In this document: positions 20,390-40,069 of the stretch, in pieces
Layout of the letters: each line of letters begins with the position of its first letter
How positions within the stretch are numbered: position 1 is the first letter of the stretch
NCBI RefSeq assembly: GCF_000332175.1
Contig: NZ_KB235914.1
Coordinates: 627,966-691,965, forward strand
Direction of reading: 5' to 3'
From: Pseudanabaena sp. PCC 6802
Lineage (GTDB): Bacteria; Cyanobacteriota; Cyanobacteriia; Pseudanabaenales; Pseudanabaenaceae
Length of the DNA stretch: 64,000 bases
Position numbers and translations under genes: made by a program
Notes under the pieces: model-generated
Seen by the model: the letters and a program-made list of their open reading frames with translations, nothing else
Database searches by the model: none
Told to the model about the DNA's origin: nothing

Positions 20390-20431
20390 CGAACGTTCTC
20401 CTTTTATATTGCAAAAGTTGCGATCGCTCCA

Positions 20432-24014: not shown

Positions 24015-24069
24015 TAGTATGCTCCAAATTGCAATAACTTCAATTGTCGATCGGTAAATTTTTCCTCCT

Positions 24070-25209
24070 TTAAATTTGCTCGCCTAGAGTATTGGCATAG
24101 CCAAGTTTTTGAAAAGCAAATGCCCAGCGACGATCTATGAGTTCTCGCTCCTGGGCAGATAGCTGAAACTGATTTTTCTGATAAGCCCGTTGCGAGGAAA
24201 TATAAGATGCAAATGCTGGTAATGCCTCGTTAAAACCTGGCAAGCCAAGTTCCTTGTAAACAAGCTGTAAGACTTGTAGCGGATCGCGCTCTAGATCTGC
24301 AAAGCTTACTTCAACGATCTGACCGGATGGGATCGAGGGGCGATCGCGAAAGAACTGCTGCATCATATCTTCATACAGTTCGAGGATCGTGCGATCGACA
24401 TTGGTTGGATCGATAGACTGCAGCGTCGTTAAGGACAGTAAACTATGACGGAGACTGCGCGTGGAGGCAAAGACATCGTAGGGACAACGGTGAATGTGGA
24501 TAAATTTTGCCCCTGGGAACAACTCCAACAGCAAACGAATCCTGGCAGTGTTGACTGGATTTTTTAAGACGAGTTGCTTCCCATGCGCGTGAATAGTGGC
24601 AATTTGGAGCAGTCGGTAATACTTGCGTTTAAACTCCCGAATAAATGACTCAGAGGCACCCTGCAATAACACGAACTGCTTAAAGAGGTTTAGCGTTCTG
24701 TGGGGAAATAGAAACTGGGTATAAAAGGAATGGGGCATGGTCTTCGCCAGGGGAATTTCTTCCTCTTGGGGAGAATCAATCGGCCAAGTCATATTATCCA
24801 TCGGTCGTTTGAGCGGTACGATTTTTGATAACAAAGATTTGAGCCAAATTCCGCCCACTAGCGAGCAATCGGGAACCATTGACTGATACATAGACAGATA
24901 GCCAAATGCTGGATCCTGAGCGATCAGATTGTGCAGGTGTGTCGTACCGCTGCGCCAATGGCCGATAATAAAGATTGGGGGGTGCGCAATGGTGGTGTTG
25001 ATAATCCGCTGCTCCCACACAATCTTTTCCCACAGGCGCAGAGGCAAGGTACAGATACTTGTAATCGAAATTAGCAGCAGGCGTAACGCATAGCGGGGAT
25101 GAATCCCGATCGCATAGTGGGTTAGCCGCAGGATGTTACTCAGTCGCGTAAATCCGATTAATCCGATTTGATAACCGAGTTGACTGTTCGTGAATGGGTT
25201 TGCGTTCAT
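24070..25209 (-). CDS. Sulfotransferase family protein
   Basis: This 379-residue protein has the PAPS-binding 5'-phosphosulfate loop HPPIFIIGHWRSGTTHLHNLI and a downstream FIHIHRCPYDVFASTRSLRHSL segment that fits the 3'-phosphate site. The C-terminal part has VEVSFADLERDPLQVL, common in bacterial sulfotransferases. It would move sulfate from PAPS to a hydroxyl. In this operon the acceptor may be a hydroxylated fatty chain made by the AlkB-like enzyme (inference). The N-terminal region has one amphipathic or hydrophobic helix (about 45-60). It starts 6 bases after the SDR gene, so the two are tightly linked. Confidence 0.87.
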   Translation of the reverse strand: MNANPFTNSQLGYQIGLIGFTRLSNILRLTHYAIGIHPRYALRLLLISITSICTLPLRLWEKIVWEQRIINTTIAHPPIFIIGHWRSGTTHLHNLIAQDPAFGYLSMYQSMVPDCSLVGGIWLKSLLSKIVPLKRPMDNMTWPIDSPQEEEIPLAKTMPHSFYTQFLFPHRTLNLFKQFVLLQGASESFIREFKRKYYRLLQIATIHAHGKQLVLKNPVNTARIRLLLELFPGAKFIHIHRCPYDVFASTRSLRHSLLSLTTLQSIDPTNVDRTILELYEDMMQQFFRDRPSIPSGQIVEVSFADLERDPLQVLQLVYKELGLPGFNEALPAFASYISSQRAYQKNQFQLSAQERELIDRRWAFAFQKLGYANTLGEQI

Positions 25210-25215
25210 GGCGTG

Positions 25216-25995
25216 CTATCTATCAATTACGATTGGACGTGGGAACCACCGTTCGGCGACGTAATTTAAAATAGAGCCTCGAACGACGTTAGGCAGAATG
25301 TTCAGCATGTTTAAGAAGTGATAAGACCAGTAGGGGAAGCAGTAAAAGCGCCGTCGCTGCTCGATCGCTCGCACAATTTTGGCGATCGCAACTTCCCGCT
25401 GCATGCACAGATGAGCGGGCACCTGTTCCTTGACAGTCATGTCTGTATCGATAAAGCTGGGGCAAATAGTGGTGACGTGAATGCCATGCGGCTTTAAGTC
25501 CCTGTACAGCCCCTCTAATAGATAATTCAGAGCTACTTTGGAGGCACTATAAGCACTAATTCGAGGCATAGCGTGCAAGGCCGCCATACTGGAAATCCCG
25601 ACGATTTGACCGCGACCTCGTAATAGCATGGCATCAATTACAGGAGCGATGGTATTGGCAACCCCCATGACATTGGTTTTCACGATCTGTTCAAAACGGT
25701 CGAGATCGAATTTAGCCTCCAGGTTTTGCGCAGTAATCCCAGCGTTGGCGATCGCTAGCTCGATTGGCCCCAGGTCTTTTTCAGCCATCGCCACAACATC
25801 GGCGATCGCCTGTTTTTGGGTAACATCGGCGGCGTAAATTTTCAGATGTCCGTAGCGACATTGCGGTTCTTGATAAAGAGCCTGAAGTTTTGTCTCGCGA
25901 CGGGCGATCGCCGCAACGCTACAGCCATGTTTGAGATAGTGCAGCGTCAGTGCATATCCAATCCCAGATGAGGCTCCTGTAATTAACACGTTCAT
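25216..25995 (-). CDS. Short-chain dehydrogenase/reductase
   Basis: This 259-residue SDR shows the cofactor loop TGASSGIGYAL, NAGI in the expected strand, catalytic Ser in VGISSMAAL and YSASK as the Tyr-x3-Lys pair. The absence of an acidic residue after the second strand but AIARRETK there suggests NADP(H). C-terminal YCFPYWSYHFLNMLNILPNVV is hydrophobic, as in lipid-active SDRs. It may reduce a beta-keto product of the KASIII-like enzyme or oxidise an alcohol. Its ATG overlaps the AlkB-like stop by 4 bases, and the sulfotransferase follows after 6. Confidence 0.9.
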   Translation of the reverse strand: MNVLITGASSGIGYALTLHYLKHGCSVAAIARRETKLQALYQEPQCRYGHLKIYAADVTQKQAIADVVAMAEKDLGPIELAIANAGITAQNLEAKFDLDRFEQIVKTNVMGVANTIAPVIDAMLLRGRGQIVGISSMAALHAMPRISAYSASKVALNYLLEGLYRDLKPHGIHVTTICPSFIDTDMTVKEQVPAHLCMQREVAIAKIVRAIEQRRRFYCFPYWSYHFLNMLNILPNVVRGSILNYVAERWFPRPIVIDR

Positions 25996-27110
25996 GGGGA
26001 AATTTCCTGCTGAGCTTCAAATTGTTCCAGACAAGGATGGACGACTCGCTGAAACACAGGTGGTATCAATGCTAGAAAAAACATCGCGACATGTTGGTAT
26101 GGGTATACTGGCGATCGGTTCTCGCTCCTTAAGTAGGGATAGGGACAATTGGGGGCAGCATGATGCTCCCCGTGGCGAAACAGATTCAAGAGTGCGAAGT
26201 CATGGATAAATAGAGCCTGCGACCAGGCATGATGGGTGCCAACTGGCTCGTATTTGCCTGAAGCATCAACGGTTCGCATCAAACCATAATGTTGGATGTA
26301 ATTCGTCCAATCGAGTTTCAAGATAGCGATCGCGCTTTGCAAAATAAAAAATACCCCCCCTTTCCCCCCCCACAGCCAAACCGTCAGGGACAACCAGAGC
26401 AGGCTAAAGCCATACCAGATTAGCAACTCGCTTTGCCAAAAAGACTTACCCGCTTTGGCGAGGCACTCTCGTTCGCAGCGGAGCGCCCCGCTAAAATTAC
26501 CGACAAGGCTCTGCCACCAAAAACTATAGAGACTTTGCCCCCGTCGGGCGGTAGCAAAATCTAGAGGGGTGCCAACATGGCAATGATGAATCTGGAGATG
26601 GACGACTTTGAACGTGCCAAAGCTAACGGTTGAGAGTAACAGCCCACCCAGAAATCGGTCGAATTGCTGAGGCCGATGGATTAATTCATGCCCTAGGGTG
26701 ATGGCGAAAATCCCGCTCAAAACCCCTGTTGATAATAGATAGCCCAGACTCCCCCAACCATTCAAGCTGCTACCGCACCAGTAATGCGTCGTAACCGCCA
26801 GCATCGCCAGTTGGGCGGGCACTCCTCCAAACAGCAGCAAGCGGAAATAGAGCGGCGATCGCTTTGGGATCGCGGCGGCATCAAACCGAGCGGGTACCGG
26901 ATAGGGCCAGAGCCATTGGAGAAAGGCAACAAGACCATAGGCGATCGCGAGCGGTGCAAAGGCGAACAAATTGGGACGAGCGCTTACTTCTCCGAGCCAG
27001 GCACTCAAAATCGGTAGAGCCGGAATCGCATAGGCGAGCAAATATCCCAGGCTACTCAAAATTGGAAAGCGATTATCTTGGGGATTCGTTCCGCCACTAT
27101 TCTGAGTCAT
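25992..27110 (-). CDS. AlkB-like membrane di-iron monooxygenase
   Basis: This 372-residue membrane protein has the alkane-hydroxylase pattern: HELIHR (His141, His145), HLQIHHCHVGT (171-178), NYIQHYGLMR (His274), and FRHGEHHAAPNCPYPYLR (His313, 316, 317). Six or so hydrophobic segments fit the AlkB/xylene-monooxygenase fold. It would hydroxylate a terminal or methyl position of a long chain, using rubredoxin or ferredoxin; no rubredoxin gene is next to it. The coding strand has a G8-A3-G7 run (window 26354-26371) around residues 248-252, a possible slippage site. It lies 18 bases after the KASIII-like gene and overlaps the SDR gene. Confidence 0.88.
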   Translation of the reverse strand: MTQNSGGTNPQDNRFPILSSLGYLLAYAIPALPILSAWLGEVSARPNLFAFAPLAIAYGLVAFLQWLWPYPVPARFDAAAIPKRSPLYFRLLLFGGVPAQLAMLAVTTHYWCGSSLNGWGSLGYLLSTGVLSGIFAITLGHELIHRPQQFDRFLGGLLLSTVSFGTFKVVHLQIHHCHVGTPLDFATARRGQSLYSFWWQSLVGNFSGALRCERECLAKAGKSFWQSELLIWYGFSLLWLSLTVWLWGGKGGVFFILQSAIAILKLDWTNYIQHYGLMRTVDASGKYEPVGTHHAWSQALFIHDFALLNLFRHGEHHAAPNCPYPYLRSENRSPVYPYQHVAMFFLALIPPVFQRVVHPCLEQFEAQQEISP

Positions 27111-27128
27111 AATCCACTTCTCTCAACT

Positions 27129-28166
27129 TCAATACGTCAACTGGACAACCGAAGCAACCAGTCCGGCACTAACAGGCACAAATGCAATAGAATCTCCTCT
27201 CCGAAGTACCCCTTCATCTTCGGCAAGACAAAGTCCTACCGGAATGCTTGCTGAAACCACGTTGCCAAATTCTGGGTAAACCTTCAAGTAGACTTTCTCA
27301 ATCGGGACTCCATATGTGGGCATGTATTCTTCATAAATTGCCTTGGAAGGGGTATGGGGAAAGTACCAAACCGGATGGCTGACATCGTCGATCGACTCAG
27401 CAATGACTTTCCCTAAGGATTTACTGCCTTCACGAAAGAGATCTCTACCATAGGATACAAATCGATTAATGCCATTCAGTTCCATGCGATCGCTTGCTTC
27501 CACAAAGTTAGCATAGCCAGGAAGCGGTATCGTACAGAGATCGGCGAACTCGGGTCTCGATAGATAGGAAAAGTTCCAGGGGCGATCGCTGGGTAACAGA
27601 ATCGTGGCTGTTGCTGCCTCGCCAATGGTGTACATCGGAAACGAATATTCCAGAGCGCGGATATCGCGGATTTCCCAGTTATCGTGCAGCCCTAAATGGA
27701 ATTCTCCATTCACGATCATTGCGGCTTTGAACGCACCCGACTGCAACATTAAACCTGCGATGTGAGCCGCCCGCACCCAACTCATGCAGGCATCCGTAAC
27801 ATCAAAACAGTTAGCCAGATGCATCCCCTTCGCCTTGGCATAAAAATAGGCATTGGCAGGCTCTAAAAAACCGCGCCCCACGCCGCAATAAATCAATAAA
27901 TCGATATCTGTTGGAGCCATGTTCGCTTTCTCTAAAGCACCATCGATTGCTGAAAAAATCGAGTCTGATGCCTTCTCCCCCGCCTCAATATCGCGAAGAT
28001 ACCGAGTTTTCGCTCCTGTTTGACTTAACAACTTTTCAACGATTTTGAGGTATGGAGCTTTCTTAATGGGGGAAACTTTAGGGTTGCTCCGCTCCATATA
28101 ATCCAGCAGATCGCTATTGGTTAATTTTTGAGAAGGTACGCGGTAAGATATAGAAGCGATTTTCAT
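27129..28166 (-). CDS. KASIII (FabH/OleA-like) condensing enzyme
   Basis: This 345-residue thiolase-fold enzyme carries the KASIII triad: Cys127 in DACMSW, His271 in FPHTPSKA and Asn302 in EFGNVVSASIP. The YCGVGRGFLEPANAYF and YTIGEAATATIL stretches mark a FabH-like group apart from housekeeping FabH. It would condense an acyl thioester with malonyl-ACP or a second acyl-CoA, starting the pathway. As first gene of the eight-gene operon it lies behind a 496-base region containing two TGA(T/C)AAATGTCA sites and a palindromic repeat. No acyl carrier protein or acyl ligase is encoded nearby, so these must come from elsewhere. Confidence 0.88.
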   Translation of the reverse strand: MKIASISYRVPSQKLTNSDLLDYMERSNPKVSPIKKAPYLKIVEKLLSQTGAKTRYLRDIEAGEKASDSIFSAIDGALEKANMAPTDIDLLIYCGVGRGFLEPANAYFYAKAKGMHLANCFDVTDACMSWVRAAHIAGLMLQSGAFKAAMIVNGEFHLGLHDNWEIRDIRALEYSFPMYTIGEAATATILLPSDRPWNFSYLSRPEFADLCTIPLPGYANFVEASDRMELNGINRFVSYGRDLFREGSKSLGKVIAESIDDVSHPVWYFPHTPSKAIYEEYMPTYGVPIEKVYLKVYPEFGNVVSASIPVGLCLAEDEGVLRRGDSIAFVPVSAGLVASVVQLTY

Positions 28167-28662: not shown

Positions 28663-28974
28663 ATGCCAGAAGACTTGACCTGCGATCTGTTCTCAAAATA
28701 TCTGGGGAGCGTGTTTCAACTGCCCGTACCGTCGGTAGCACCACTAGAGTTACAGCTTGTAGAAGTCGTGCCACATACAGCACATCCTTTGCCTGAGAAT
28801 CGGGGGGTATTACAACGCATCCCCTTTTCGTTAATATTCCAGGGACCGCTAGAGACAGCACTACCGCAACGCACCTACACCTTGGAACATGCGGAAATGG
28901 GTAAATTGGATATCTTTTTAGTTCCCGTGGCCCGCCGCCAGGATGGCATGCAATACGAAGCGGTTTTCACTTAA
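28663..28974 (+). CDS. DUF6916-like small protein of tail-collar module
   Basis: This 103-residue protein is predicted mostly beta and compact. Landmarks are CDLFSKYLGSVFQLP, LELQLVEVVPH, PFSLIFQGPLETALPQRTYTLEHAEMG and LDIFLVPVARRQDGMQYEAVF. From memory this matches the DUF6916 family, seen next to phage-tail-collar genes and a GNAT gene in other bacteria, as here. Function is unknown; the fold may be a structural or assembly module. A good Shine-Dalgarno sequence (AAGGAG, 28651-28656) precedes the ATG by 6 bases. The GNAT gene starts 4 bases after its stop, so the pair is one operon. Confidence 0.65.
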   Translation: MPEDLTCDLFSKYLGSVFQLPVPSVAPLELQLVEVVPHTAHPLPENRGVLQRIPFSLIFQGPLETALPQRTYTLEHAEMGKLDIFLVPVARRQDGMQYEAVFT

Positions 28975-28978
28975 ACTT

Positions 28979-29506
28979 ATGGCAGATAAACTATCTCACC
29001 AACTATCTCATCAAGCCTTAAGCGATCGCGGTGTAACCTTTCGCGACATTACACCTGAGGATCTTCCGTTTCTCCAAAGGCTCTATGCCAGTACCCGCGA
29101 AGAGGAAATGGCAATGGTGGATTGGAGCGATCGCGCCAAAGCAGATTTCCTGCAAATGCAATTTGAAGCCCAGCATAAGTATTACCAGGCAAACTACGCG
29201 CAAACATCTTTTCAGATAATTCTTTTACATGAAGAACCGATCGGTCGCCTGTACGTGGCGCGATGGGAGCAAGAGATTCGCATTGTCGATCTGGCGATCC
29301 TGCCAGAGCATCGCGATCGCGGGATTGGCTCCCAAATACTCCAGGATCTGCTAGCAGAAGCAACGCGGCGAGGTTTACCTCTACGAATTCACGTGGAGCA
29401 GTACAACCGCGCCCTGCGGCTCTATCAGCGCCTGGGTTTTCAAAAGATTGGAGAGCATGGGGTATACTGGTTGATGGAATGCACTCCTGGTGAAGTTTTA
29501 CTGTAG
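28979..29506 (+). CDS. GNAT family N-acetyltransferase
   Basis: This 175-residue protein has the GNAT fold. FRDITPEDLPFLQRLYASTR is the N-terminal strand-helix unit, RIVDLAILPEHRDRGIGSQILQDLL holds the acetyl-CoA pyrophosphate loop (R-G-I-G), and YQRLGFQKIGEHGVYWLME is the C-terminal part. The ATG at 28979 is preferred over the one at 28943, which lies inside the DUF6916 gene. It could acetylate a surface-protein residue or a sugar; the target is unknown. Its stop overlaps the end of the convergent DUF4058 fragment by 9 bases. Its link to the collar genes is inferred from conserved neighbourhood as I recall it. Confidence 0.85.
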   Translation: MADKLSHQLSHQALSDRGVTFRDITPEDLPFLQRLYASTREEEMAMVDWSDRAKADFLQMQFEAQHKYYQANYAQTSFQIILLHEEPIGRLYVARWEQEIRIVDLAILPEHRDRGIGSQILQDLLAEATRRGLPLRIHVEQYNRALRLYQRLGFQKIGEHGVYWLMECTPGEVLL

Positions 29507-29755
29507 GATCGATGGCTGGGACAACCCCGATCGCGAGCGCACCCAGTCCCAATCTTCATCCTTCAACTTTACCCGTGGCGGACAGGTATAGTCGATCGCC
29601 AGATCCAGTGCTGCTTCTTCATACACCCGATCCAATAGTGCTTTCAAATCGATCTGCGGTTCGCAATCGCTTGGTTCCAAGGGCAATGGGAATACGGGAA
29701 TGCGATCGCGAACGAATTCAATCGTAAGGGGCGATCGCTCCCAGGATAGCTCCAT
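29498..29755 (-). pseudogene. C-terminal fragment of a DUF4058 protein
   Basis: These 85 codons match only the end of DUF4058 proteins, which are normally about 250 residues: IPVFPLPLEPSDCEPQIDLKALLDRVYEEAALDLAIDY is the characteristic last block, followed by PP and a terminal DWDWVRS helix. The rest of the family domain is absent because the tail-collar gene stops 6 bases upstream. It could be a relic or a small protein still translated from the collar mRNA. The reading frame is intact, with an ATG at 29755. Confidence 0.6.
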
Positions 29756-29761
29756 ACTACT

Positions 29762-30289
29762 TCAGGTGCGAGGTGGATATACTCCCTGTAAGGCAATGCA
29801 GAAATAGAAGGTTAAGTAGGGCTGCATGTTATTGTGCGGTGCGTCGCCGCCGGATGGGGCGAGAGCGGAATCTGACATTGGCTGCAAGCCAGAGGATATT
29901 GAATTCTGGTACAAAAAGCCATTTGCCGACCGTGCCAACACGCGGTTAGATGTGGGAGCTTTTAGATCGCCATCGTCCGAAGAGGCCATTAAGGAATGGC
30001 TGTGAGATGGTATCTCCGACTCCAACAGCGTTACTGTTTCGGAGCCTCCAGTTTCGCCCAGATCGTGCAACGAAAGCCCTGGCCCTTGTCCTGGGTGCAT
30101 GGGAGCGCGTCCTTGTAAATCGGGTAGACCAAAATTCGATTTACCATTTCCTCCGTAGGTAGTTCCCAACAACGAAAACAGCGCCGTGTTCTGGGACAGC
30201 GGCAATAACTGACCATCGCACCACGCCCAGCCTTTGGGTGGAAAGTTAAATGGGAAAATTCTGATCTCAGCCACAAATGGGTCGGCCAT
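29762..30289 (-). CDS. Phage-tail-collar (MdpB-like) protein 3
   Basis: A 175-residue protein. The N-terminal tail-collar domain has VAEIRIFPFNFPPKGWAWCDGQLLPLSQN and ALFSLLGTTYGGNGKSNFGLPDLQGR. The middle (about 85-150) is variable, with SHSHSLMAS, and the end is NMQPYLTFYFCIALQGVYPP. The family (COG4675) includes the microcystin-dependent protein MdpB; in phages this domain forms trimeric fibre tips that bind receptors. Three paralogues stand in a row, with no phage structural genes, so a host surface role is likelier than a prophage. It is 55 bases after collar protein 2. Confidence 0.88.
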   Translation of the reverse strand: MADPFVAEIRIFPFNFPPKGWAWCDGQLLPLSQNTALFSLLGTTYGGNGKSNFGLPDLQGRAPMHPGQGPGLSLHDLGETGGSETVTLLESEIPSHSHSLMASSDDGDLKAPTSNRVLARSANGFLYQNSISSGLQPMSDSALAPSGGDAPHNNMQPYLTFYFCIALQGVYPPRT

Positions 30290-30344
30290 ATTTATTCTCC
30301 TAAATACTGAAATCTAAAAGCTGAAAGCTAAATACTCCTCTCAA

Positions 30345-30848
30345 TCATGTCGGGCTTGGGAAAATCCCCAATAGAGAAATGATGAAGTCAACGCAGAGAT
30401 AGGGTTGAAAATTGGTGTGTGGCTGGCTACCACCGATCGCTGACACCACTGCTGAATTCATATTGCTGTTGGCGGTGTCTTCAATAAAGGGACTAATCGC
30501 TACCGACTCAGCTAAGAGGTTTTTGCTCGGGGTTGCGAGGGTTGCCGCTGAGGTGGATGCCAACAGAGGGTGACTATGAGATGGAATCTGACTTACCGTC
30601 AACGCAATCTCTTCGGCTCCCCCTGTCTCCGCCAGGATAAAACCGTTGCCCATGTGTACGGGCAAGCGACCGCGCAAATCGGGTAAAGCAAAGTTAGATT
30701 GACCGTCACCGCCATAGGTCGTACCGATCAATTGGAAGAGGGCTTCGTTTTCCGCAATCGATATTAGTTGTCCCTCGCAGAACATCCACCCCGCAGGGGC
30801 GAAGTTGCCCGCGAACATGCGAATTTCGCCAATATAAGGCTGTGCCAT
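30345..30848 (-). CDS. Phage-tail-collar (MdpB-like) protein 2
   Basis: A 167-residue paralogue of its neighbours. It shares IGEIRMFAGNFAPAGWMFCEGQLISIAEN, LFQLIGTTYGGDGQSNFALPDLRGR, LTVSQIPSHSHPLLAS and the C-terminal FQPYLCVDFIISLLGIFP. The central variable stretch (about 95-145) differs from the other two, as expected if each copy forms a different tip. The paired His of SHSH may bind a metal in the trimer. It starts 9 bases after collar protein 1, so these two are co-translated. Confidence 0.88.
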   Translation of the reverse strand: MAQPYIGEIRMFAGNFAPAGWMFCEGQLISIAENEALFQLIGTTYGGDGQSNFALPDLRGRLPVHMGNGFILAETGGAEEIALTVSQIPSHSHPLLASTSAATLATPSKNLLAESVAISPFIEDTANSNMNSAVVSAIGGSQPHTNFQPYLCVDFIISLLGIFPSPT

Positions 30849-30857
30849 AGATGTCTC

Positions 30858-31355
30858 CTAGTTTGGACTTGGGAAAATGCCCTGGAGGGCGATTGAGAAG
30901 TTTAAGGTTAGAAAAGGCTGCATGTTAAGATGTGCCTGCGACCCTCCAACGTTGGCGATCGCGCTAGGACTAAGCGAAGTCAAATTTGTGGGAGGATTGT
31001 AAACATTGTTGGCAGCAGCCAAAATATTACCAACCGCGACCGGAACGTTTGCATTTGAGGGCGATCCCGACAAAACGTGGGTATGGGTGGGAATCTCGGT
31101 GATCGAGAGGGTGTGTGCTTGTTCGCCGCCCCGTTCGCCAAGCGTGTGACTGCCGCCAACATGAATCGGTGTCCGGGCGCGCAAGTCGGGCAACGCAAAG
31201 TTCACGCGCCCATCGCCGCCGAAGGTCGTTCCGAGCAATGAGAAGAGACCCTGATTCTGATTGATGGGCAAAAGCTGTCCATCGCAGAGCGCCCACCCCC
31301 TCGGGGCGAAGCCAAAGCTCATGATGCGGATTTCTGAAAGGAAAGGTTCGGCCAT
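30858..31355 (-). CDS. Phage-tail-collar (MdpB-like) protein 1
   Basis: A 165-residue paralogue: LSEIRIMSFGFAPRGWALCDGQLLPINQN, LFSLLGTTFGGDGRVNFALPDLRAR, ITEIPTHTHVLSGS and NMQPFLTLNFSIALQGIFP. It is the first collar gene, 248 bases after the stop of the 2821-residue surface protein on the same strand. No signal peptide is visible, so export, if any, would need a dedicated route. The three proteins may form a heterotrimer or separate homotrimers; sequence cannot tell. Confidence 0.88.
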   Translation of the reverse strand: MAEPFLSEIRIMSFGFAPRGWALCDGQLLPINQNQGLFSLLGTTFGGDGRVNFALPDLRARTPIHVGGSHTLGERGGEQAHTLSITEIPTHTHVLSGSPSNANVPVAVGNILAAANNVYNPPTNLTSLSPSAIANVGGSQAHLNMQPFLTLNFSIALQGIFPSPN

Positions 31356-31603
31356 TAGGCATCTCCTTCGCGCCTAGCGCGATAAAAAATAATTAACAAA
31401 TGTTGATGGGATAGGCATCGCGCTCCGCCGACGCTAGGTTACTCCAATAAATCAGCGATGTAATCCCAATTCTTATCCAAAAACTATTGTATTGCATAAA
31501 AGTCGGCAAATCTAGACGAGAATCGATGAAATTACGAACAGTAGGGGTGGTGTCGATCGCTGAGATGAGATATTCCGCACCTCTTAGGAAAGCATCCACA
31601 GGA

Positions 31604-34600
31604 CTAGAACGGAGTCGGTGTCGGCACCGTACCGCCGAAAAAGCCGTCCGTCGTTACTGTTGCGGAATCGTTTGCCGTGGCGCTGCCAGGTTCACCTGCA
31701 CTGCCAGTGTTGCGACCCTGAATATAGGTAACCACGGCTGCAGTGTCAAAGGGAGTTCCTGAGTAACCGGGCATCTCGATGCGCGAGTTAAAGCGTTGGC
31801 GGATGCGGAAGTCGTCGGTCGTGCCGGCACTATTCGTGAGTGTATTGGCAAGCGCTCCAGCCCCGCCGAAGTTGAGACGAACGGTATGGCTATCGACCGC
31901 ACCAAAGACGTTGGTCGTAGTTGATGCATTATTTAGGAAGAATGATTGGAGGGATAACGGATTGGTTGAAACCGACTGATCGAGATCGTTGCTTTGCACT
32001 GTCAGATTGAGGACGCCGTTGCCGTCGTTCGCCTGGACGGAAATCCCACGTTCTAAGGCATTGATAACAGTGTTGCCCGTAACTGACGAGGTGTGAGTGC
32101 CGTTGCCGTGGGCTTCAACGACGATCCCGCTCGCTTGGGTTGAACCGGAAAGCGGCGTGCCTGCCGTGCCAATGTTGTTGTTACGGATGAAGCCATTGAA
32201 CGTCCCGGCAGCACCTGAGGTGCCGAGATTGGCCGTAATCGCACTCAGAATTGCTCCGTTAATCGTGTTGCTGTCGATATCGTAGTTGACCCGCCCGGTG
32301 TAGCCACCGAACGCCACGCCAGTAGCTGCGTTGATCGTGATGCCCTGCCCAAGTGCGGTGGGATGACCGCCGGAGAGTGTATTATTGGTGAATTTCACGT
32401 TGAGATTTGCCGAATTGCTGGCAGCGGCCTGGAAGTGGTCGCCTCGATTGGCGGTAAACGTGTTGCCAGTGAGGGTTGCCGTCATGGTGGCAGTTCCAGA
32501 CGCATCCATCAGGAAGCCGTCGTTACCGATCGCCGAGTTGTTGCTGAAGGTACTACCAGTTACGGTGAGGTTGGTCAGCGTGCCGCTGGAATTGCGGATG
32601 ACGGCGTTGTCCTCCGCCGAGCCACTGACGGTAATGCCCGACCAGGTCGAGGTACCGAACAGGTTGGTCAGATCGATACCTGCCTCGCCAGCGGCATTGC
32701 CGTTGTTCGTTACTCGCACGCCCGTAAGCGAGAGTCCGGTAACCGTCGTACCGCGAATACCGTCATCTCCACCGCCTGAAATGTTCATGTTGGAGAGATT
32801 GACATTTGCCGTATTGGTAAGCAAAATGCCCGCGTCCGTTGAGTTTTGAATTGTGCCGCCCGATCCAGCCGTCGAACCGGTGCCCGTGACGGTTAATCCA
32901 CCACTCGTACCCGTGTTGTTGAGTACGATGCCGTTAGTGGCTCCATTAGAACTGATGCTGCGGAAGTTCAGGTTACTCGCGCCAATTGTGGTGTTCGCGA
33001 CATTGAGGGCTGTGCCGGTGGTGGAAGTAATTGTATTCGTGCCAGTAGCCGATACTGTACCGCCACCCGTGGCGTTGAAGCCCACACCGCTAGTCGTGTT
33101 GAGCGTCAATCCACCCGTGAAGTTGACCGTGCCGCCTGTGTTGGTCAGGTCGATCGCATTGGCAGTCGTCGTCGTGCCAGTAATCTGACCGTTAAACGTT
33201 GTGGTGCCTCCGGTCTTTGCATTGATATTGACGGCATTATTGGCATTGTTGGTCTTAGTAATTGTGCCGTTATAGGTCACGTTTGCCGTGCTCGTATCTT
33301 CGTTGTAAGCGATGCCAGATGGGTTATTGATGGATGTATTCGCGCTGAATGCAAACGTTCCGCCCGAACCACCGATGATATCGATTCCCGCATCGCCGCC
33401 ATTCAGCGTCGCGGTGCCGTTGAAATTGTACGTACCGTCGGCGTTGTTGAACTGCAATCCCGTACCGTTGGTCGCGTTAATCGTTCCCGTTTGGAACGTA
33501 GCAGTTCCCGTGTGACCTCCAGATACGGAGACCGCTGCGGCATTGTTTGCCTGGGTAATGTTGCCAGAATAGGTAGTATTTACGCTGCCGCCATTGATAT
33601 TGAAGGCTGCACCCGTGGGGCTGGTAATAGTACCGCCATTGGCAGTAAACGTACCCGAGCTACCGACCAGATTGACACCATTCGTACCGCCGCTAGAAGA
33701 GAGACTGCCCAGAACGACATTCAAAGCACCGGAAGTACCGACATTGAAACCGCCACCCGTGGTGTTATTGATGATGGCCTCGCTAATTGTCAGGTTGCCG
33801 ACTGCGCCACCAGTAATGCTAAATCCACTGGCATTGCCCGCATTTAGCCCCCGCAGCGTATTGTTTGAACCCAGGGTAATTCCTCCAGCGATGTTGGGTC
33901 TGTTACCCGAGAACGCATCCAGACTGTTAAAGCTGCCCAGCGTAATGCCAGTAAGCGCTGCCAGCGTAGTACCTGTTGTGCCGTCGCCAATCAGTTTCTG
34001 ATCGTTTCGCAGCGTAATCCCACCTGCATAGGTACCCGCGCCATCAGCATTTGCATTGGTGGCATCGTCATCGATAAAGATAAAATCGGTGTTTGCAGGG
34101 AGATTGCCAACACCAGTATTTGCCGCATTAAAGGCTGCCAAAGTCCTGAATGGATCGGCCTGAGTGCCTAAATTAGCCGAATCAATGGCATCCTCATCGA
34201 TGAACCACAACACGCTGTTCCCAGCACCAGCACCATCGAGATCGGTGACGTTAATCGTTGCGGTTATATTTGCCGTCGCAGGAGGCAGAGGCGTACCGCT
34301 ATCCTGAATTTGATAGACAAACGTATCGCTGCCAACAAAGCCAGCTACAGCATTATAGGTAAAGCTACCATCAGCATTCACCGTCACGTTGTTATCGTCC
34401 GCAGTTGTTGCCGTGGCTGCCGCTGCTGCACTTGTCAGCGTAGCTGCCACCACACTCACCGTTGTGCCATCGGGGTCTGTCGCTCCCGTCAGCAGATCGC
34501 TCGCACCATCAGGGACAGTCAGGGTCAAGTTAGCATTGCTGGTATAAGTCGGAGCGGGGGTGAGGGCAGGCGGATCGTTGACGGGTTGCACGTTAATATC

Positions 34601-37600
34601 CCGCGTTACCGTATTGCTGTTGACATCGCCATCATTCACCGTGTAGCTGACCGTGCGCGTAGCAGTATTGGGGTTATCGCTGGTGTTGGTGTAGGCAATT
34701 TGGTGCAAAGCCGTCGAGTAGTTGGCGAGCGATGCCGACCCCGTAAGGGTTATCGTACCTGGCACGGAAGTATTGGCGACAATCCCACCTGGAAGAGCGC
34801 CGACTACCGAGAGGACATCCTGTCCAGCCACGAACCCACTCGTAATACTAATCGTGGCACTTTCTGCGTTTGGCTCGTCGTCTGTAATCCCCAATCCGGT
34901 AGGACTGATTATTGTTTGCGTTTGCTCGTTAATCGTAATGGCACCCACAGCAGCCGCGCCCAAAACTGGTGGTGCGTTGACAACTCCGGTAATCGCGAAG
35001 TTGTAGGGGTTCTCATTGCTGTCGTTGTTCGGAATGGTGATGTCGCCGCCAAACGTACCAGAGGCAGCAGCAGTTAGCTGTACCGTTATTGTGGTGCTAG
35101 CTCCCGGCGTTACCGTTGCAGATGGCAATGTCGTAATTGTGTAACCAGTTGGTACGGTAATGCTGCCGGTTGTGAGATTGAGCGGAGCTGAACCAGTATT
35201 CTCAATTGTGAAGGTGCGGGACACGGTAGCACCAACGTTAGTTCTGCCATAGTCGGTGCCATCGGTTGTACTCGGCGTGGTATCGCCATCGGCAATGTTG
35301 TCAGTCGTACCGCCAAAGCCGCCATCGGTGACGTTAATCTCTGGCGCGACAACGCTACCAGTAATGGCAAAGTTATAGGGATTCTCATCGCTGTCGTCGT
35401 TCGGAATTGAGATATCCCCAGCAAACGTACCGGCAGTTGCAGCGGTGAGCTGTACGCCAATTGTGGTGCTGCCTCCTGGTGCTACTGTTGCGGCTGGCGT
35501 GGTGGTAATCGTGTAACCAGCGGGTACGGTGATGCTACCAGTCGTGAGGTTGAGGGTGCCTGTACCCGTGTTCTCAATCGTAAACGTGCGAGTTACAGCA
35601 GTACCAACTGGAGTACTGCCATAGTCGGTGCCGTCTGTAGTACTCGGCGTGGCATCGCCATCTGCAATGTTGTCAGTTGTACCGCCAAAGCCACCATCCG
35701 TGACGTTAATCTCCGGCGCAGTAACCGTACCTGTAATGGCAAAGTTGTAAGGATTCTCATCGCTGTCGTTGTTCGGGATGACGATGTCGCCAGCAAACGT
35801 ACCAAGGGCACCAGCAGTAAGCTGTACCGTAATCGTGGTACTGGCTCCTGGTGCTACGGTGGCGGCTGGTGTACTTGTAATCATGTAACCCGTGGGAACG
35901 GTAATACTACCCGTTGTGAGATTGAGCGTAGCCGTACCAGTGTTCGCGATCGCAAAGGTGCGACTCACGGCTGTACCCAGCAAAGTCGTACCGTAATCGG
36001 TACCGTCGGTCGTACTTGGTGTGGTGTCGCCATCCGCGATACTGTCAGTTGCTCCACCAAAGCCACCATCGGTGACATTGATTTCCGGAGCGGTAACAAT
36101 GCCTGCGATCGCGAAGTTGTAGGGATTCTCGTCGCTGTCGTTGTTGCCAAAGCTGATTTCACCGTTAAAGGTACCTGGTGTTGTGGCATCCAGTTGAACG
36201 GTAAAGGCAGCGTTACTTCCTGCTGCAATACTGGTTGGGAATGCGCCGACCAAACTGAAACCCGTTGGTAAGGTGGGTGCGCCTAGAGTTAATGCTGCTG
36301 TACCGAGATTTTCAATCGTAAACGTTTGAGTCAGGGCTGTTCCAACTGTGGTCGTACCGTAATCAGTGCGATCGTCAACGCTCGGCGTGGTATCGCCATC
36401 GAGAATGCTGGTAGGACGACCGTTAATATCGTCAACAGTGACATTAATCTCTGGAGCGACAACGCTGCCAGTAATGGCAAAGTTGTAGGGGTTTTCATTG
36501 CTGTCGTCGTTTGGAATTGAGATATCGCCCGCAAACGTGCCGACGGTGGTGGCGGTAAGCTGTACCTCGATTGTGGTGCTGGCTCCTGGTGCTACTGTTG
36601 CCGATGGCAGGGTGGCGATCGTATAGCCAGTTGGTACGGTAATGCTACCAGTCGTGAGGTTGAGGTTGGCGGTGCCGGTGTTCTCAATTGTAAAGGTGCG
36701 GGTTAGGGCAGTGCCAAGGGGAGTGGAGCCATAGTCGGTGCCGTCGGTTGTGCTCGGTGTGGTGTCGCCATCGAGGATGTTGTCGGTCGTACCACCAAAG
36801 CCGCCATCGTTAACGTTAATTTCTGGAGCAATTACAGTGCCCGTAATCGCAAAGTTGTAGGGGTTCTCGTCACTGTCATCGTTCGGGATCGCGATATCGC
36901 CCGCAAACGTGCCAGCAGCAGTAGCTGTAAGCTGTACTTCAATTGTGGTGCTGGCTCCTGGTGCTACAGTTGCCGATGGCAGGGTCGCAATCGTATAGCC
37001 AGCAGGCACGGTAATGCTGCCAGTCGTGAGGTTGAGATCGGACGTGCCAGTATTCGCGATCGTAAAGGTGCGAGTTATAGCAGTACCGAGGGGAGTGGAA
37101 CCATAGTCGGTGCCATCGGTGGTGCTTGGCGTGGTGTCGCCGTCAGTAATATTGTCGGTTGTGCCGCCGAAACCGCCATCGGTGACGTTAATCTCTGGGG
37201 CGGTAACGGTACCTGTAATGGCAAAGTTGTAAGGATTCTCATCGCTGTCGTCGTTCGGAATTGAGATATCCCCAGCAAACGTACCGGCAGTTGCAGCGGT
37301 GAGCTGTACGCCAATTGTGGTGCTGCCTCCTGGTGCTACCGTTGCAGATGGTGTAGTGGTAATCGTGTAACCAGCGGGTACGGTGATGCTGCCAGTGGTG
37401 AGATTGAGATCGGACGTACCAGTGTTCGCGATCGCAAACGTGCGGGTCACCGCCGTGCCGACCAGGGTGCTGCCATAGTCGGTGCCGTCCGTAGCGCTCG
37501 GCGTGGTATCGCCATCGGCGATGCTGTCAGTTGTACCGCCAAACCCACCATCAGTCACGTCGATCTCTGGTGCGGTAACCGTGCCTGTAATGGCAAAGTT

Positions 37601-40069
37601 ATAGGGATTCTCGTCGCTGTCGTTGTTCGGAATGACGATGTCGCCAGCAAACGTACCAGTGGCAGCCGCTGTAAGCTGTACGCCAATTGTGGTGCTAGCT
37701 CCCGGCGCTACCGTTGCAGATGGAGTAGTGGTAATCGTGTAACCGGCGGGTATGGTGATGCTGCCAGTCGTGAGATTGAGATTGGCCGTACCCGTATTCG
37801 CGATCGTAAACGTGCGCGTTACGCTATTTCCAACAAGAGTTGTGCCATAGTCGGTACCATCGTCAGTGCTTGGCGCAGCGTCACCATCAGCAATGCTGTC
37901 TGTCGTACCGCCAAACCCGCCATCGGTCACATTTATCTCTGGGGCAATAACGGTGCCTGTAATGGCAAAGTTGTAGGGGTTTTCATTGCTGTCGTTGTTG
38001 CCAAAACTAATTTCACCGCTGAAAATACCGCCTGTCGTGGCATCCAGTTGCACGGTAAATGTAGCATTGCCCCCCGCAGCGATGCTGGTTGGGAACCCAC
38101 CAACCAGGCTAAAGCCTGTTGGTAAGGTGGGCGCGCTCAAAGTTAATTCAGCCGTACCAGTATTTTGAATTGTAAATGTGCGAGACAGGGTTGCGCCAAG
38201 CGCGGTCGAACCGTAATCGGTGCCATCGGCAGTACTGGGCGTGGTGTCGCCGTCAGTAATGTTGTTGGTCGCGCCGCCAAAGCCACCATCGGTAACGTTA
38301 ATTTCTGGAGTAGGAGCTGGACCAACTACTCCTGTAATCGCAAAGTTGTAGGGATTTTCATTACTGTCGTTGTTGCCGAAGCTGATATTACCGCTGAAAG
38401 TACCTACTGCCGTGGCATCCAGTTGCACGGTAAACGTGGCGTTACTGCCCGCTGCCACACTGGCCGGGAATCCACCAACCAGGCTGAAGCCTGTAGGTAA
38501 GGTAGGCGCGCTTAAGGTGAGATCGGCTGTGCCCGCGTTCTCAATCGTAAACGTGCGGGTTACAGCCGTACCAGCCGTAGTACTGCCGAAGTTGGTGCCA
38601 TCTGTAGTGCTTGGTGTGGTATCGCCATCGGCGATATTGTCAGTCGTACCGCCAAAGCCACCATCGGTAACGTTAATCTCTGGGGTAGGGGCAGCACTAA
38701 CTGCTCCTGTAACAGCAAAGTTGTAGGGATTTTCATTACTGTCGTTGTTGCCGAAGCTAATATTACCGCTGAAAGTACCGGCGGTTGTGGCATTCAGTCT
38801 GACCGTAAATGTGGCATTGTTCCCTGCTGGGATACTGGTGGGGAACGCGCCGATCGGGCTGAAGCCAGTAGGCAAGGTAGGCGCGCTTAAGGTGAGAGCG
38901 CCCGTACCGGTATTCTCGATCGTAAACGTGCGGGTTACGGGCGTGCCCACTACGGTACTGCCGTAATCGGTGCCGTCAGCAGAGATCGGCGTGGTATCGC
39001 CATCGGTAATATTGTCAGTCGTACCGCCAAAGCCGCCATCGGTAACGTTAATCTCTGGGGTCAGTGCTGGTGCCGCGTCTACTCTTGTGGTTTCCGTGAC
39101 GCTGTTGTTGGTTTCGTTGCTCTCGGCGATCGCATTTAGCGGATCTACCCTGGCAGTATTACTTTTTGTACCTACCGTGGCGGTGGTAGTAGACACAGCG
39201 ATCGTCAGCGTGGTACTGCCGCCTGCGGCAATGCTTCCACCCGTAAAGGTAACGGTTTGCCCTGACGTACTGGCAGTGAACCCATTGGATACAGTTGTGG
39301 CTCCAGGCACGAATCCTGTGGGTAAGGTGTCCTGCACCGTAACGTTGCTGGCGGCGGCGGTGCCGTTATTGCTGACAGTTAACGTGTAGACGAGCGGATC
39401 GCCAACTCTAATGGGATCGGCACTATCTCTCTTGGCGATCGTTAAGTCGGGTCTAAACGTGCCTACGGGGGTAAGATCTGTAGTGAAATCGCTCTCCGTT
39501 AATTGGTTGGGTTGGATTGCTCGCAGAACTCCTAAATATTCCCCAGTCAACCTGTCCCGAATTACGGTTGAATTGACGAAAGTACCTGTAGAATCGAGCG
39601 CTCTTGTTACCAGGATAAAGTCTAGATCTTGAAAGCTCAGTCCTCCTCCCAGTCCAATTAGATCGGAACCCTTGGTGAAATCCATAATTCGATCGGCATC
39701 GGAGAAGTTAGGGCCGCCAGTTGTGCTTGTGGCTGCGCCTGACACTCGCTCGAACACGAACTTATCCGCACCTGCCCCACCTGTAAGCTTATCGGATCCG
39801 AGATCGCCGAATATAACATCGTTATCCTGACTGCCAAAGATTTCGTCTGCATCTTCACCGCCATGAAGGATGTCGTTGCCTATACCGCCATTAATAATAT
39901 CTATCCCCTGGCCGCCATCGATGAGGTCGTTCCCATCACCACCAGAGAGCTGATCGGCTCCCTGGTTTCCGAATATTGTATCCGCACCTCCTAGACCCGA
40001 AATAATACTGTTGATAGGCAAGCCGTTAAGCAGGTCGGGGTTGGGCGTACCGAAAATAAATTCATCCAT
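31604..40069 (-). CDS. Giant repeat-rich surface/adhesin-like protein (2821 residues)
   Basis: Order of parts: RTX nonapeptides at about 15-110 (GGADTIFGNQGADQLSGGDGN) followed by a serralysin-like block to about 195; a DUF11/CARDB-type domain at about 205-330 (DPIRVGDPLVYTLTVSNNG); eleven tandem repeats of about 124 residues at 338-1698 (EINVTDGGFGG...NENPYNFAI); cadherin-like or Ig-like domains to about 1950; and a Gly/Asn/Thr-rich right-handed beta-helix to the C-terminus. No Sec signal, membrane anchor or sortase motif is visible. RTX repeats usually lie at the C-terminus, so an N-terminal position is odd. Cell-surface adhesion or fibre formation is the likely role. Three collar genes follow on the same strand. 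The 920-base upstream region has no gene. Confidence 0.85.
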   Translation of the reverse strand: MDEFIFGTPNPDLLNGLPINSIISGLGGADTIFGNQGADQLSGGDGNDLIDGGQGIDIINGGIGNDILHGGEDADEIFGSQDNDVIFGDLGSDKLTGGAGADKFVFERVSGAATSTTGGPNFSDADRIMDFTKGSDLIGLGGGLSFQDLDFILVTRALDSTGTFVNSTVIRDRLTGEYLGVLRAIQPNQLTESDFTTDLTPVGTFRPDLTIAKRDSADPIRVGDPLVYTLTVSNNGTAAASNVTVQDTLPTGFVPGATTVSNGFTASTSGQTVTFTGGSIAAGGSTTLTIAVSTTTATVGTKSNTARVDPLNAIAESNETNNSVTETTRVDAAPALTPEINVTDGGFGGTTDNITDGDTTPISADGTDYGSTVVGTPVTRTFTIENTGTGALTLSAPTLPTGFSPIGAFPTSIPAGNNATFTVRLNATTAGTFSGNISFGNNDSNENPYNFAVTGAVSAAPTPEINVTDGGFGGTTDNIADGDTTPSTTDGTNFGSTTAGTAVTRTFTIENAGTADLTLSAPTLPTGFSLVGGFPASVAAGSNATFTVQLDATAVGTFSGNISFGNNDSNENPYNFAITGVVGPAPTPEINVTDGGFGGATNNITDGDTTPSTADGTDYGSTALGATLSRTFTIQNTGTAELTLSAPTLPTGFSLVGGFPTSIAAGGNATFTVQLDATTGGIFSGEISFGNNDSNENPYNFAITGTVIAPEINVTDGGFGGTTDSIADGDAAPSTDDGTDYGTTLVGNSVTRTFTIANTGTANLNLTTGSITIPAGYTITTTPSATVAPGASTTIGVQLTAAATGTFAGDIVIPNNDSDENPYNFAITGTVTAPEIDVTDGGFGGTTDSIADGDTTPSATDGTDYGSTLVGTAVTRTFAIANTGTSDLNLTTGSITVPAGYTITTTPSATVAPGGSTTIGVQLTAATAGTFAGDISIPNDDSDENPYNFAITGTVTAPEINVTDGGFGGTTDNITDGDTTPSTTDGTDYGSTPLGTAITRTFTIANTGTSDLNLTTGSITVPAGYTIATLPSATVAPGASTTIEVQLTATAAGTFAGDIAIPNDDSDENPYNFAITGTVIAPEINVNDGGFGGTTDNILDGDTTPSTTDGTDYGSTPLGTALTRTFTIENTGTANLNLTTGSITVPTGYTIATLPSATVAPGASTTIEVQLTATTVGTFAGDISIPNDDSNENPYNFAITGSVVAPEINVTVDDINGRPTSILDGDTTPSVDDRTDYGTTTVGTALTQTFTIENLGTAALTLGAPTLPTGFSLVGAFPTSIAAGSNAAFTVQLDATTPGTFNGEISFGNNDSDENPYNFAIAGIVTAPEINVTDGGFGGATDSIADGDTTPSTTDGTDYGTTLLGTAVSRTFAIANTGTATLNLTTGSITVPTGYMITSTPAATVAPGASTTITVQLTAGALGTFAGDIVIPNNDSDENPYNFAITGTVTAPEINVTDGGFGGTTDNIADGDATPSTTDGTDYGSTPVGTAVTRTFTIENTGTGTLNLTTGSITVPAGYTITTTPAATVAPGGSTTIGVQLTAATAGTFAGDISIPNDDSDENPYNFAITGSVVAPEINVTDGGFGGTTDNIADGDTTPSTTDGTDYGRTNVGATVSRTFTIENTGSAPLNLTTGSITVPTGYTITTLPSATVTPGASTTITVQLTAAASGTFGGDITIPNNDSNENPYNFAITGVVNAPPVLGAAAVGAITINEQTQTIISPTGLGITDDEPNAESATISITSGFVAGQDVLSVVGALPGGIVANTSVPGTITLTGSASLANYSTALHQIAYTNTSDNPNTATRTVSYTVNDGDVNSNTVTRDINVQPVNDPPALTPAPTYTSNANLTLTVPDGASDLLTGATDPDGTTVSVVAATLTSAAAAATATTADDNNVTVNADGSFTYNAVAGFVGSDTFVYQIQDSGTPLPPATANITATINVTDLDGAGAGNSVLWFIDEDAIDSANLGTQADPFRTLAAFNAANTGVGNLPANTDFIFIDDDATNANADGAGTYAGGITLRNDQKLIGDGTTGTTLAALTGITLGSFNSLDAFSGNRPNIAGGITLGSNNTLRGLNAGNASGFSITGGAVGNLTISEAIINNTTGGGFNVGTSGALNVVLGSLSSSGGTNGVNLVGSSGTFTANGGTITSPTGAAFNINGGSVNTTYSGNITQANNAAAVSVSGGHTGTATFQTGTINATNGTGLQFNNADGTYNFNGTATLNGGDAGIDIIGGSGGTFAFSANTSINNPSGIAYNEDTSTANVTYNGTITKTNNANNAVNINAKTGGTTTFNGQITGTTTTANAIDLTNTGGTVNFTGGLTLNTTSGVGFNATGGGTVSATGTNTITSTTGTALNVANTTIGASNLNFRSISSNGATNGIVLNNTGTSGGLTVTGTGSTAGSGGTIQNSTDAGILLTNTANVNLSNMNISGGGDDGIRGTTVTGLSLTGVRVTNNGNAAGEAGIDLTNLFGTSTWSGITVSGSAEDNAVIRNSSGTLTNLTVTGSTFSNNSAIGNDGFLMDASGTATMTATLTGNTFTANRGDHFQAAASNSANLNVKFTNNTLSGGHPTALGQGITINAATGVAFGGYTGRVNYDIDSNTINGAILSAITANLGTSGAAGTFNGFIRNNNIGTAGTPLSGSTQASGIVVEAHGNGTHTSSVTGNTVINALERGISVQANDGNGVLNLTVQSNDLDQSVSTNPLSLQSFFLNNASTTTNVFGAVDSHTVRLNFGGAGALANTLTNSAGTTDDFRIRQRFNSRIEMPGYSGTPFDTAAVVTYIQGRNTGSAGEPGSATANDSATVTTDGFFGGTVPTPTPF
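34976..39058 (-). repeat. Eleven tandem ~370-bp repeats inside the giant gene
   Basis: Units begin PEINVTDGG and end NPYNFAITG; eleven NPYNFA blocks can be counted. Two subtypes alternate in blocks. Type A (LTLSAPTLPTGF, ISFGNND) forms units 1, 2, 3 and 8; type B (LNLTTGSITVPAGY, IPNND) forms units 4-7 and 9-11. Unit 8 is the most divergent (VTVDDINGRPTS for the VTDGGFGG stretch). DNA similarity is high enough for recombination or assembly collapse. Confidence 0.9.

Follow-up and report, generated by a model that had tools for sequence, protein, structure and literature searches.

A widespread bacterial gene set centred on three conserved types of phage tail-tip-like collar protein

Introduction

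Bacterial collar-domain proteins carry the annotation 'tail fiber protein' in the records examined here, a name that invites their dismissal as phage debris. A locus of Pseudanabaena sp. PCC 6802 raises the question of whether such genes may instead serve the cell that carries them. Within the 64,000-nucleotide stretch of DNA analysed in this study (hereafter, the window), three collar genes lie in a row between the gene of a giant repeat protein and a pair of genes encoding a DUF6916 protein and a GNAT acetyltransferase. An initial annotation of the window took these genes for a self-contained, widespread surface fibre or adhesion system, with the collar proteins as exchangeable tips and the GNAT as a modifier. 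The findings below bear on a large class of collar-domain proteins, which belongs to a conserved cellular gene set with nameable parts. They also gather three unknowns, namely DUF6916, the GNAT and the C-terminal domain of the giant, into one testable complex.

The gene set in Pseudanabaena sp. PCC 6802

The genes named in the initial annotation were all found at their place and on their strand, and the collar and DUF6916 proteins matched their Pfam families above cut-off (Table 1). On the minus strand, the giant gene is followed after 248 bp by C1, which is separated by 9 bp from C2, which in turn lies 55 bp from C3. The DUF6916/GNAT pair, on the plus strand, is convergent with the collars across 255 bp, and the GNAT reading frame probably starts directly after the DUF6916 stop. 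In each of the three collar proteins (165-175 aa), the PF07484 domain begins at residue 7 or 8, and no shaft is present in the same chain. Across the whole 5.62-Mb genome, whose 17 phycobilisome-family matches mark it as cyanobacterial, C1, C2 and C3 are the only PF07484 matches at E 0.001 or better, and DUF6916 occurs once.

Table 1. Features of the gene set in the window, with the evidence for each
Feature	Position	Strand	Evidence and remarks
DUF6916 protein, 103 aa	28663..28974	+	PF21880 102 bits (cut-off 27); this copy without visible signal peptide
GNAT acetyltransferase	28979..29506 (likely start; longest ORF from 28943)	+	PF00583 50 bits
C3 collar protein, 175 aa, N-terminus MADP, HSH motif	29762..30289	-	PF07484 94 bits (cut-off 24)
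C2 collar protein, 167 aa, N-terminus MAQP, HSH motif	30345..30848	-	PF07484 103 bits (cut-off 24)
C1 collar protein, 165 aa, N-terminus MAEP, HTH motif	30858..31355	-	PF07484 91 bits (cut-off 24)
Giant repeat protein, 2,821 aa	31604..40069	-	RTX, DUF11/CARDB, choice-of-anchor-D Ig domains, C-terminal beta-helix
Last 420 residues of the giant: beta-helix with conserved 'PGYxG ... helix ... GRN' end cap	31607..32866	-	Alignment and model

Scans of the window for terminator-like motifs (4, against 3.9 expected) and promoter-like motifs (9, against 4.2 expected) were uninformative. Adjoining the module, a minus-strand run at 18656-28166 encodes a halogenase/FAD-binding protein, a hydrolase, two fatty-acid desaturase-like proteins, a sulfotransferase, an SDR and a KAS III-like enzyme; by these contents, it looks like a lipid or natural-product cluster.

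Recurrence across bacteria

An alignment of C3 alone was scanned against 84,980 species genomes, so that nothing about the partner genes was selected. The scan returned at least 562 confirmed relatives, and the best 80 loci were fetched, with 35 from Pseudomonadota, 15 from Acidobacteriota, 10 from Chloroflexota, 8 from Bacteroidota, 6 from Actinomycetota, 5 from Verrucomicrobiota and 1 from Thermomicrobiota. The 7 phyla of these best 80 loci become 10 when the window's own phylum and plasmid records of Deinococcota and Bacillota are included. The Deinococcota locus (L015) has a giant and three collars, with neither GNAT nor DUF6916 seen, and the Bacillota locus (L017) has a giant, a GNAT and three collars of greater divergence.

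C1, C2 and C3 were found on one strand and in this fixed order in 75 of the 80 C3-selected loci and in reverse order in 1, and the remaining 4 are contigs of 3.3-8.8 kb without the full set. A GNAT relative was present in 67 of the 80 and DUF6916 in 68; among the 50 loci of at least 15 kb, the ordered triplet was found in 49, the GNAT in 44 and DUF6916 in 46. Because the same set recurs across phyla, its presence in the window is not due to chance. The claim of a self-contained, widespread gene set outside phage genomes is borne out by these counts, and a widespread, undescribed module is strongly supported. In the open-licence PMC papers searched, the term 'DUF6916' is absent, and no paper naming the gene set was found among the matches listed.

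The association was also approached from DUF6916. In the window's own phylum, collars occur in 22 of 244 genomes and DUF6916 in 2. Carriers numbered 19 of 247 genomes in Acidobacteriota (the phylum of L061), 8 of 240 in the class of the Mesorhizobium locus L037 (one match being below the family cut-off) and 8 of 247 in the phylum of the Flavobacterium locus L079. Collars lay beside DUF6916 in 2/2, 17/19, 8/8 and 8/8 of these genomes, respectively, giving 35/37, or 31/33 once the window's genome and the three centre genomes, whose collars were known beforehand, are set aside. The two exceptions are G431, where the contig is 9.9 kb long, and G267. The initial annotation had staked its case on the enrichment of these families side by side, and such enrichment was found. 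Similarly, in 16 chosen module genomes, 21 of 23 DUF6916 copies map inside the fetched collar locus; in G259, both copies lie outside its fetched collar locus (L100).

Regions of at most 18 kb were then taken around 37 DUF6916 matches from the phylum of L061, the class of L037 and the phylum of L079. Collars were present in 32 of them, numbering exactly three in 30 and two in 2; among these 32, a GNAT was found in 28 and a low-arginine ORF of at least 700 aa in 25. In the Mesorhizobium class, a large ORF was present in 3 of 9 regions, and none is shown in the other 6. The five regions with no collars nearby are L128, L133, L137, L138 and L146. The fetched stretches of L128, L133 and L137 hold DUF6916 and a GNAT and are free of collars, and in G505 and G310 other DUF6916 matches (L147, L166) do adjoin collars.

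The link between DUF6916 and collars is one-way, since most collar genomes are without DUF6916: in the window's phylum, 20 of the 22 collar genomes lack it, and in the phylum of L079 a collar match was found in 63 of 247 genomes against 8 with DUF6916. Collar triplets with no DUF6916 or GNAT nearby also occur (L196-L199). An apparent anticorrelation between DUF6916 and signal-bearing collars was discarded: DUF6916 is absent from all 11 genomes picked because their collars bear signals, are fused or are DUF6916-less, a figure that is not evidence because most collar genomes of L079's phylum lack this gene anyway. Three genomes from the window's phylum that lie outside its class (G134, G136 and G154) have 5 to 10 collar matches, several of them in runs. 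In G143 (L005, L008), the other DUF6916 genome of the 244, DUF6916, a GNAT and a single collar stand in a row on one strand.

Three conserved collar types

Profiles for the three collar types, built from six loci, separated 230 collar ORFs of 80 loci by a median of 75 bits (5-95%: 52-93). The window collars were assigned in the same way, with 296 bits against 200 for the next type (C1), 306 against 204 (C2) and 328 against 216 (C3). A tree was built of 108 collars drawn from 36 chosen loci. Position labels required 17 changes on it, whereas shuffled labels required 51 on average. Collars of the third position alone made up a clade of 26 rows, those of the first a clade of 20 and those of the second a clade of 19, each spanning several phyla. 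Even where the first two positions are swapped (L132, L136, L159), one of each type is present. In L152 and L165, the three collars of each locus lie nearer to one another than to any type clade, divergent rows (L018, L150, L151, L156) fall outside these clades, and many forks of the tree have weak support. On these sequence comparisons, C1, C2 and C3 are conserved orthologs by position, one of each of three types.

The initial description of three collar genes in a row thus stands with a correction, in that they are one each of three conserved types and not copies of one. The idea of exchangeable tips is not supported: one of each conserved type is kept, and the C3 proteins fetched are 66-84% identical to that of the window over the best segment. 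The interpretation first put forward is partly supported, the widespread set being the part that holds and the mechanism holding only in part.

The types also differ in their first residues. With the start taken as the Met directly before the collar, the C1 N-terminus reads MAEP in 60 of 83 proteins and MSEP in 15, the C2 N-terminus reads MAQP in 70 of 84, and the C3 N-terminus reads MADP in 62 of 89 and MDPF in 17. An H-x-H motif is common to all three, being present in 82/83 C1, 82/84 C2 and 89/89 C3 proteins (253/256, including all three window collars); of the three exceptions, two appear to have misassigned starts, and the third, the C2 protein of L038, is real. In the phage T4 short tail fibre protein gp12, His445 and His447 from each of three chains hold an axial metal (PMC3004832), and by analogy the collar motif probably corresponds to this pair. 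Conservation along the collars, expressed as the majority fraction, is 0.85-0.91 at residues 1-100, drops to 0.39-0.45 across the following 35-45 residues and recovers in the final 30, as expected for a conserved frame with a variable tip loop.

Fusions provide a further clue to stoichiometry. Among 474 collar ORFs, some of them counted twice, a single collar domain was found in 470 and three domains in the other 4; no ORF had two. These 4 represent 2 distinct ORFs, each present in two loci. One, of 547 aa (G908; L186 1513-3156, the same gene as L188 7175-8818), carries one H-x-H per domain. The other, of 333 aa (G024, from the window's class; L012 1288-2289, the same gene as L189 7264-8265), lacks H-x-H and the second half of each collar and has a hydrophobic end.

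Because one of each type is conserved and fusions comprise three domains, a heterotrimeric tip appears to be the simplest reading of the collar sequences. The main competing account, that the three collars form separate homotrimeric tips with differing specificities, each displayed alone, draws on the homotrimeric nature of T4 gp12 (PMC3004832), on the pronounced variability of the loop region past residue 100 and on the single-collar locus of G143. Separate tips should nevertheless vary more in number than the DUF6916 regions allow, in which 30 of the 32 with collars have exactly three, and they would explain neither the retention of one of each type despite order changes nor fusions of three domains and never two. 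We therefore regard separate tips as unlikely, albeit as a serious contender to the heterotrimer.

The giant protein

The window giant opens with N-terminal RTX repeats (PF00353, 53.8 bits) and contains DUF11/CARDB domains and 11 choice-of-anchor-D stretches (NF012200, 542 bits). A further match, to Beta_helix, is weak (25.5 bits, against a cut-off of 25.9), and no Pfam matches are found beyond residue 2565. The last 420 residues were modelled as a beta-helix whose cap includes a short helix (pLDDT 84, pTM 0.89); beta-helix proteins top the list of a PDB fold search, none of them at E 0.001 or better. This segment aligns across 13 giants, with the window protein 62% identical to that of L022 (Acidobacteriota) and 30-41% identical to 11 others.

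A profile of the last 117 residues, made from 12 of the 13 giants (L065 omitted), found matches in 3 genomes out of 247 from Acidobacteriota, each of them one of the 19 DUF6916 carriers; at most 18 candidates were scored per genome, so this count may include misses. The cap lies near the module in G411 and G416 and on another contig in G310. Because the other 16 of the 19 DUF6916 genomes gave no match, this end is one variant among several.

Giants were counted as repeat-like ORFs low in arginine, 800 aa or longer and lying within 4 kb; 42 of the 50 C3 loci of at least 15 kb had one, 41 of the 42 on the collar strand, and 8 of the 50 failed the filter. By a simple rule, 22 of the 31 giants with a complete start have a Sec-like segment. 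Big_9 and Cadherin_5 each occur in 17 of 20 chosen giants, in place of which the window giant has choice-of-anchor-D and RTX domains. Giants sit on either side of the collars, and their ends differ: Por_Secre_tail was found in 2 of the 20, and inspection by eye revealed SLH-like repeats in Paenibacillus and autotransporter-like ends in Ruegeria and Pontibrevibacter.

The GNAT and DUF6916 proteins

The solved chains nearest to the window GNAT are an N-terminal acetyltransferase (E 1.8e-8), followed by an N-acetyltransferase, a diamine acetyltransferase and RimI (1.8e-5); against the RimI model TIGR01575, it scored 39 bits, below the cut-off of 86.4. The role of modifier given to the GNAT in the initial annotation is plausible. 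Because the conserved collar N-termini would expose Ala or Ser after removal of Met, N-terminal acetylation of the collars is a reasonable guess, and no more.

DUF6916 was modelled as a small beta-barrel (pLDDT 88) from an alignment of 55 of the 74 listed stretches. Fold searches against PDB, VIA and viral structures gave no confident match. The best Z score, 7.9, was obtained with MrkH, of the YcgR-N/PilZ-type fold (rmsd 2.5 over 82 residues), and the best PDB Foldseek hit, at E 0.29, was another protein. A DUF6916 paralog with a twin-arginine motif was noticed in L014, L023, L029, L030, L040, L043, L046, L061, L063, L067, L075, L083 and L086, mostly beside a signal-less copy.

Location and export

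Among the window collars, no signal peptide and no adjacent Tat partner were found, its DUF6916 is of the signal-less type, and neither a Sec nor a Tat signal was seen by eye at the N-terminus of the giant. In the first 385 distinct collar ORFs, a Sec-like extension was present in 3, all of them from L102 (2099-5166), an IMG/VR contig on which three collars, each with a Sec-like signal, accompany a secreted large ORF. By eye, a draw of Bacteroidota loci yielded further collars with Sec-like extensions (L192, L193, L194) and others with a twin-arginine motif followed by a hydrophobic stretch (L177, L190, L191, L195). ORFs with Tat-like starts numbered 59 in 781 kb around collars against 25 in 1,001 kb farther off, a threefold higher density, and 51 of 112 loci have one near the collars; the count relies on motif and hydrophobicity and includes false matches, some of them giant ORFs. 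Together with the Tat-signal DUF6916 paralogs, this density suggests that the collars may be exported in folded form, possibly by piggyback on a Tat-signal partner. The surface location proposed in the initial annotation is thus supported by relatives, with their signal-bearing collars and Tat-like partners, and not by the window genes themselves.

These observations could also fit a complex of collars, GNAT and DUF6916 in the cytoplasm or periplasm, with the giant as no more than a frequent neighbour. Such a complex would account for the 382 of 385 collar ORFs without a signal-like extension, for the 7 of 32 collar-bearing DUF6916 regions that show no large ORF and for the differing ends and sides of the giants, as well as for the lack of a clear signal in that of the window. 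It sits poorly, however, with the near-uniform placement of giants on the collar strand, with the restriction of the giant's C-terminal domain to DUF6916 carriers among the Acidobacteriota genomes and with the existence of collars that have signals of their own. On balance, we find a complex unrelated to the giant unlikely, to about the same degree as separate tips.

In soil metaproteomes, COG4675 proteins of Pedobacter, Acidithrix and Ramlibacter are reported as differentially abundant (PMC5579227), and these may belong to other collar loci.

A proposed working of the module

The reading that we prefer, to which we give slightly less than an even chance, is that of a horizontally spread surface-fibre module in which C1, C2 and C3 form one metal-centred heterotrimeric tip that works with the giant outside the cytoplasm. 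C1, C2 and C3 would be dedicated paralogs of the phage tail-tip fold, assembling 1:1:1 into a single heterotrimer to which each chain contributes its H-x-H pair for an axial metal, as in T4 gp12. The variable loops, at about residues 100-140, would form the binding face. As the tip is shaftless, length and anchoring to the surface would come from the neighbouring giant, where present. Folding of the tip is probably completed in the cytoplasm, and in many lineages the folded tip would leave via Tat together with a Tat-signal partner. A probable part for DUF6916 is that of an adaptor in assembly or export, and the probable targets of the GNAT are the conserved N-termini of the collars (MAEP, MAQP, MADP), which it would acetylate.

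Of this reading, the gene content and its conservation, the orthology by type, the H-x-H pair, the fusions of three domains and the signal peptides of certain relatives are observed. We infer the heterotrimer, its contact with the giant, the Tat route, the roles of the GNAT and DUF6916, and the adhesive function; the giant as carrier, Tat export and adhesion are plausible in decreasing strength. A more elaborate version envisages a surface organelle not described before: a single-chain giant ends in a three-sided beta-helix, and a phage-type heterotrimer locked by metal sits on that end as its tip. This tip would be exported already folded, by Tat piggyback on a signal-bearing partner (often a DUF6916 protein), and acetylated at its N-termini by its own GNAT, and the organelle would have been passed among at least 10 phyla. 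With all of these parts taken together, this version is improbable.

If the heterotrimer is correct, the module would provide a tail-tip fold built from three different chains. To the best of our knowledge, no such fold has been described. If the Tat route is correct, it would provide a folded extracellular adhesin exported by Tat.

Relation to known systems

Module collars share with COG4675 the family label 'microcystin-dependent protein', which we take to be the same as MdpB and MrpB; the label carries no mechanism. Giant RTX/cadherin/Ig surface adhesins are a known class, and the module giants resemble them in their long Ig or cadherin repeats; the window giant also has the RTX repeats by which RTX adhesins are recognised. 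Unlike these adhesins, module giants often partner three collars, and some share the C-terminal beta-helix cap.

A close likeness is to T4 gp12 and other collar-domain tail fibres, with which the collars have in common a PF07484 match over cut-off and an H-x-H pair of presumed correspondence (PMC3004832). Unlike gp12, module collars are stand-alone, shaftless proteins of 165-175 aa that occur as three distinct paralogs, and, unlike phage tail fibres, they belong to a chromosomal set with GNAT, DUF6916 and giant, the scanned flanks of which are free of phage genes. The mosaic adhesive trimer (MAT) fibres of Bdellovibrio are likewise phage-fibre-like adhesive proteins on a bacterial surface (PMC10769870). 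MAT proteins are described as having a signal peptide, a beta-rich N-terminal domain, a trimeric shaft and a tip on one chain (PMC10769870), whereas the window collars consist of the collar domain only and have no N-terminal extension; the word 'collar' is absent from the main text of the MAT paper (PMC10769870). RhiB, from the rhiABC operon of Rhizobium, is another cellular COG4675 collar-domain protein of a non-phage operon (PMC13133039; PMC6969944). By description, to which this likeness is confined, its operon differs from the module in having rhiA and rhiC beside rhiI and rhiR (PMC13133039; PMC6969944).

An improbable phage origin and probable horizontal transfer

The tip fold is that of phage receptor binders, and the gene set is patchily distributed, with DUF6916 in only 2 of 244 genomes of the window's phylum. 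Both features would suit a masking or decoy layer, in which phage-like tips attach to glycans of the cell's own surface and keep phages from adsorbing; PADLOC matched none of the six proteins, and such a layer seems very improbable. A defence system, considered as a candidate, was rejected on the same 0/6 result.

A domesticated phage or tailocin remnant, whose collars are used only with phage tail genes, is scarcely credible either: its collar fold is of phage type, all three window collars match PHROG tail families and 162 phage records match C1, but the identity is about 36% or less in the 20 rows listed, and the flanks scanned are not those of a phage. Of the 14 flanking proteins scanned (18.6-28.2 kb and 41.0-49.4 kb), 12 belong to families of metabolism or transport and 2 match nothing in Pfam; none is phage-like, and the window has no tRNA. 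The window DUF6916 gave 0 matches in 50,697 phage records and no PHROG match. A pattern-led C3 scan of viral contigs found 22 loci, the best full-length one of which (L102, 46%) is a bacterial-looking module; the match of C3 to L103, another viral contig, reaches 58% over 59 residues only.

Horizontal spread, as supposed in the preferred reading of a surface-fibre module, is suggested by the neighbours of the window proteins. In the collar tree, those nearest to the window C1 and C2 are from L022 (Acidobacteriota; 85% and 82%) and that nearest to C3 is from L023 (Verrucomicrobiota; 85%); these neighbours and the likeness of the giant's C-terminus to that of L022 point to transfer. Base composition was set aside as a weak indicator, the module having a GC content of 0.534 against 0.481 for the rest of the window and a GC3 that overlaps its neighbours.

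Annotated plasmids of Aminobacter, Comamonas, Ruegeria and Pontibrevibacter carry the set, and those of Paenibacillus, Deinococcus, Spirosoma and Azospirillum carry part of it. In the Azospirillum oryzae locus (L020), three collars, a GNAT and DUF6916, with no annotated giant, lie amid glycosyltransferases and PqqD-like, lasso B2-like and 2OG-Fe oxygenase peptide-modification genes. An extra gene with a median length of about 430 aa, propeller-like by eye, is common to 12 loci (L013, L016, L026, L028, L033, L035, L037, L039, L045, L048, L066 and L072), and in L013 and L016 it sits between C3 and the GNAT.
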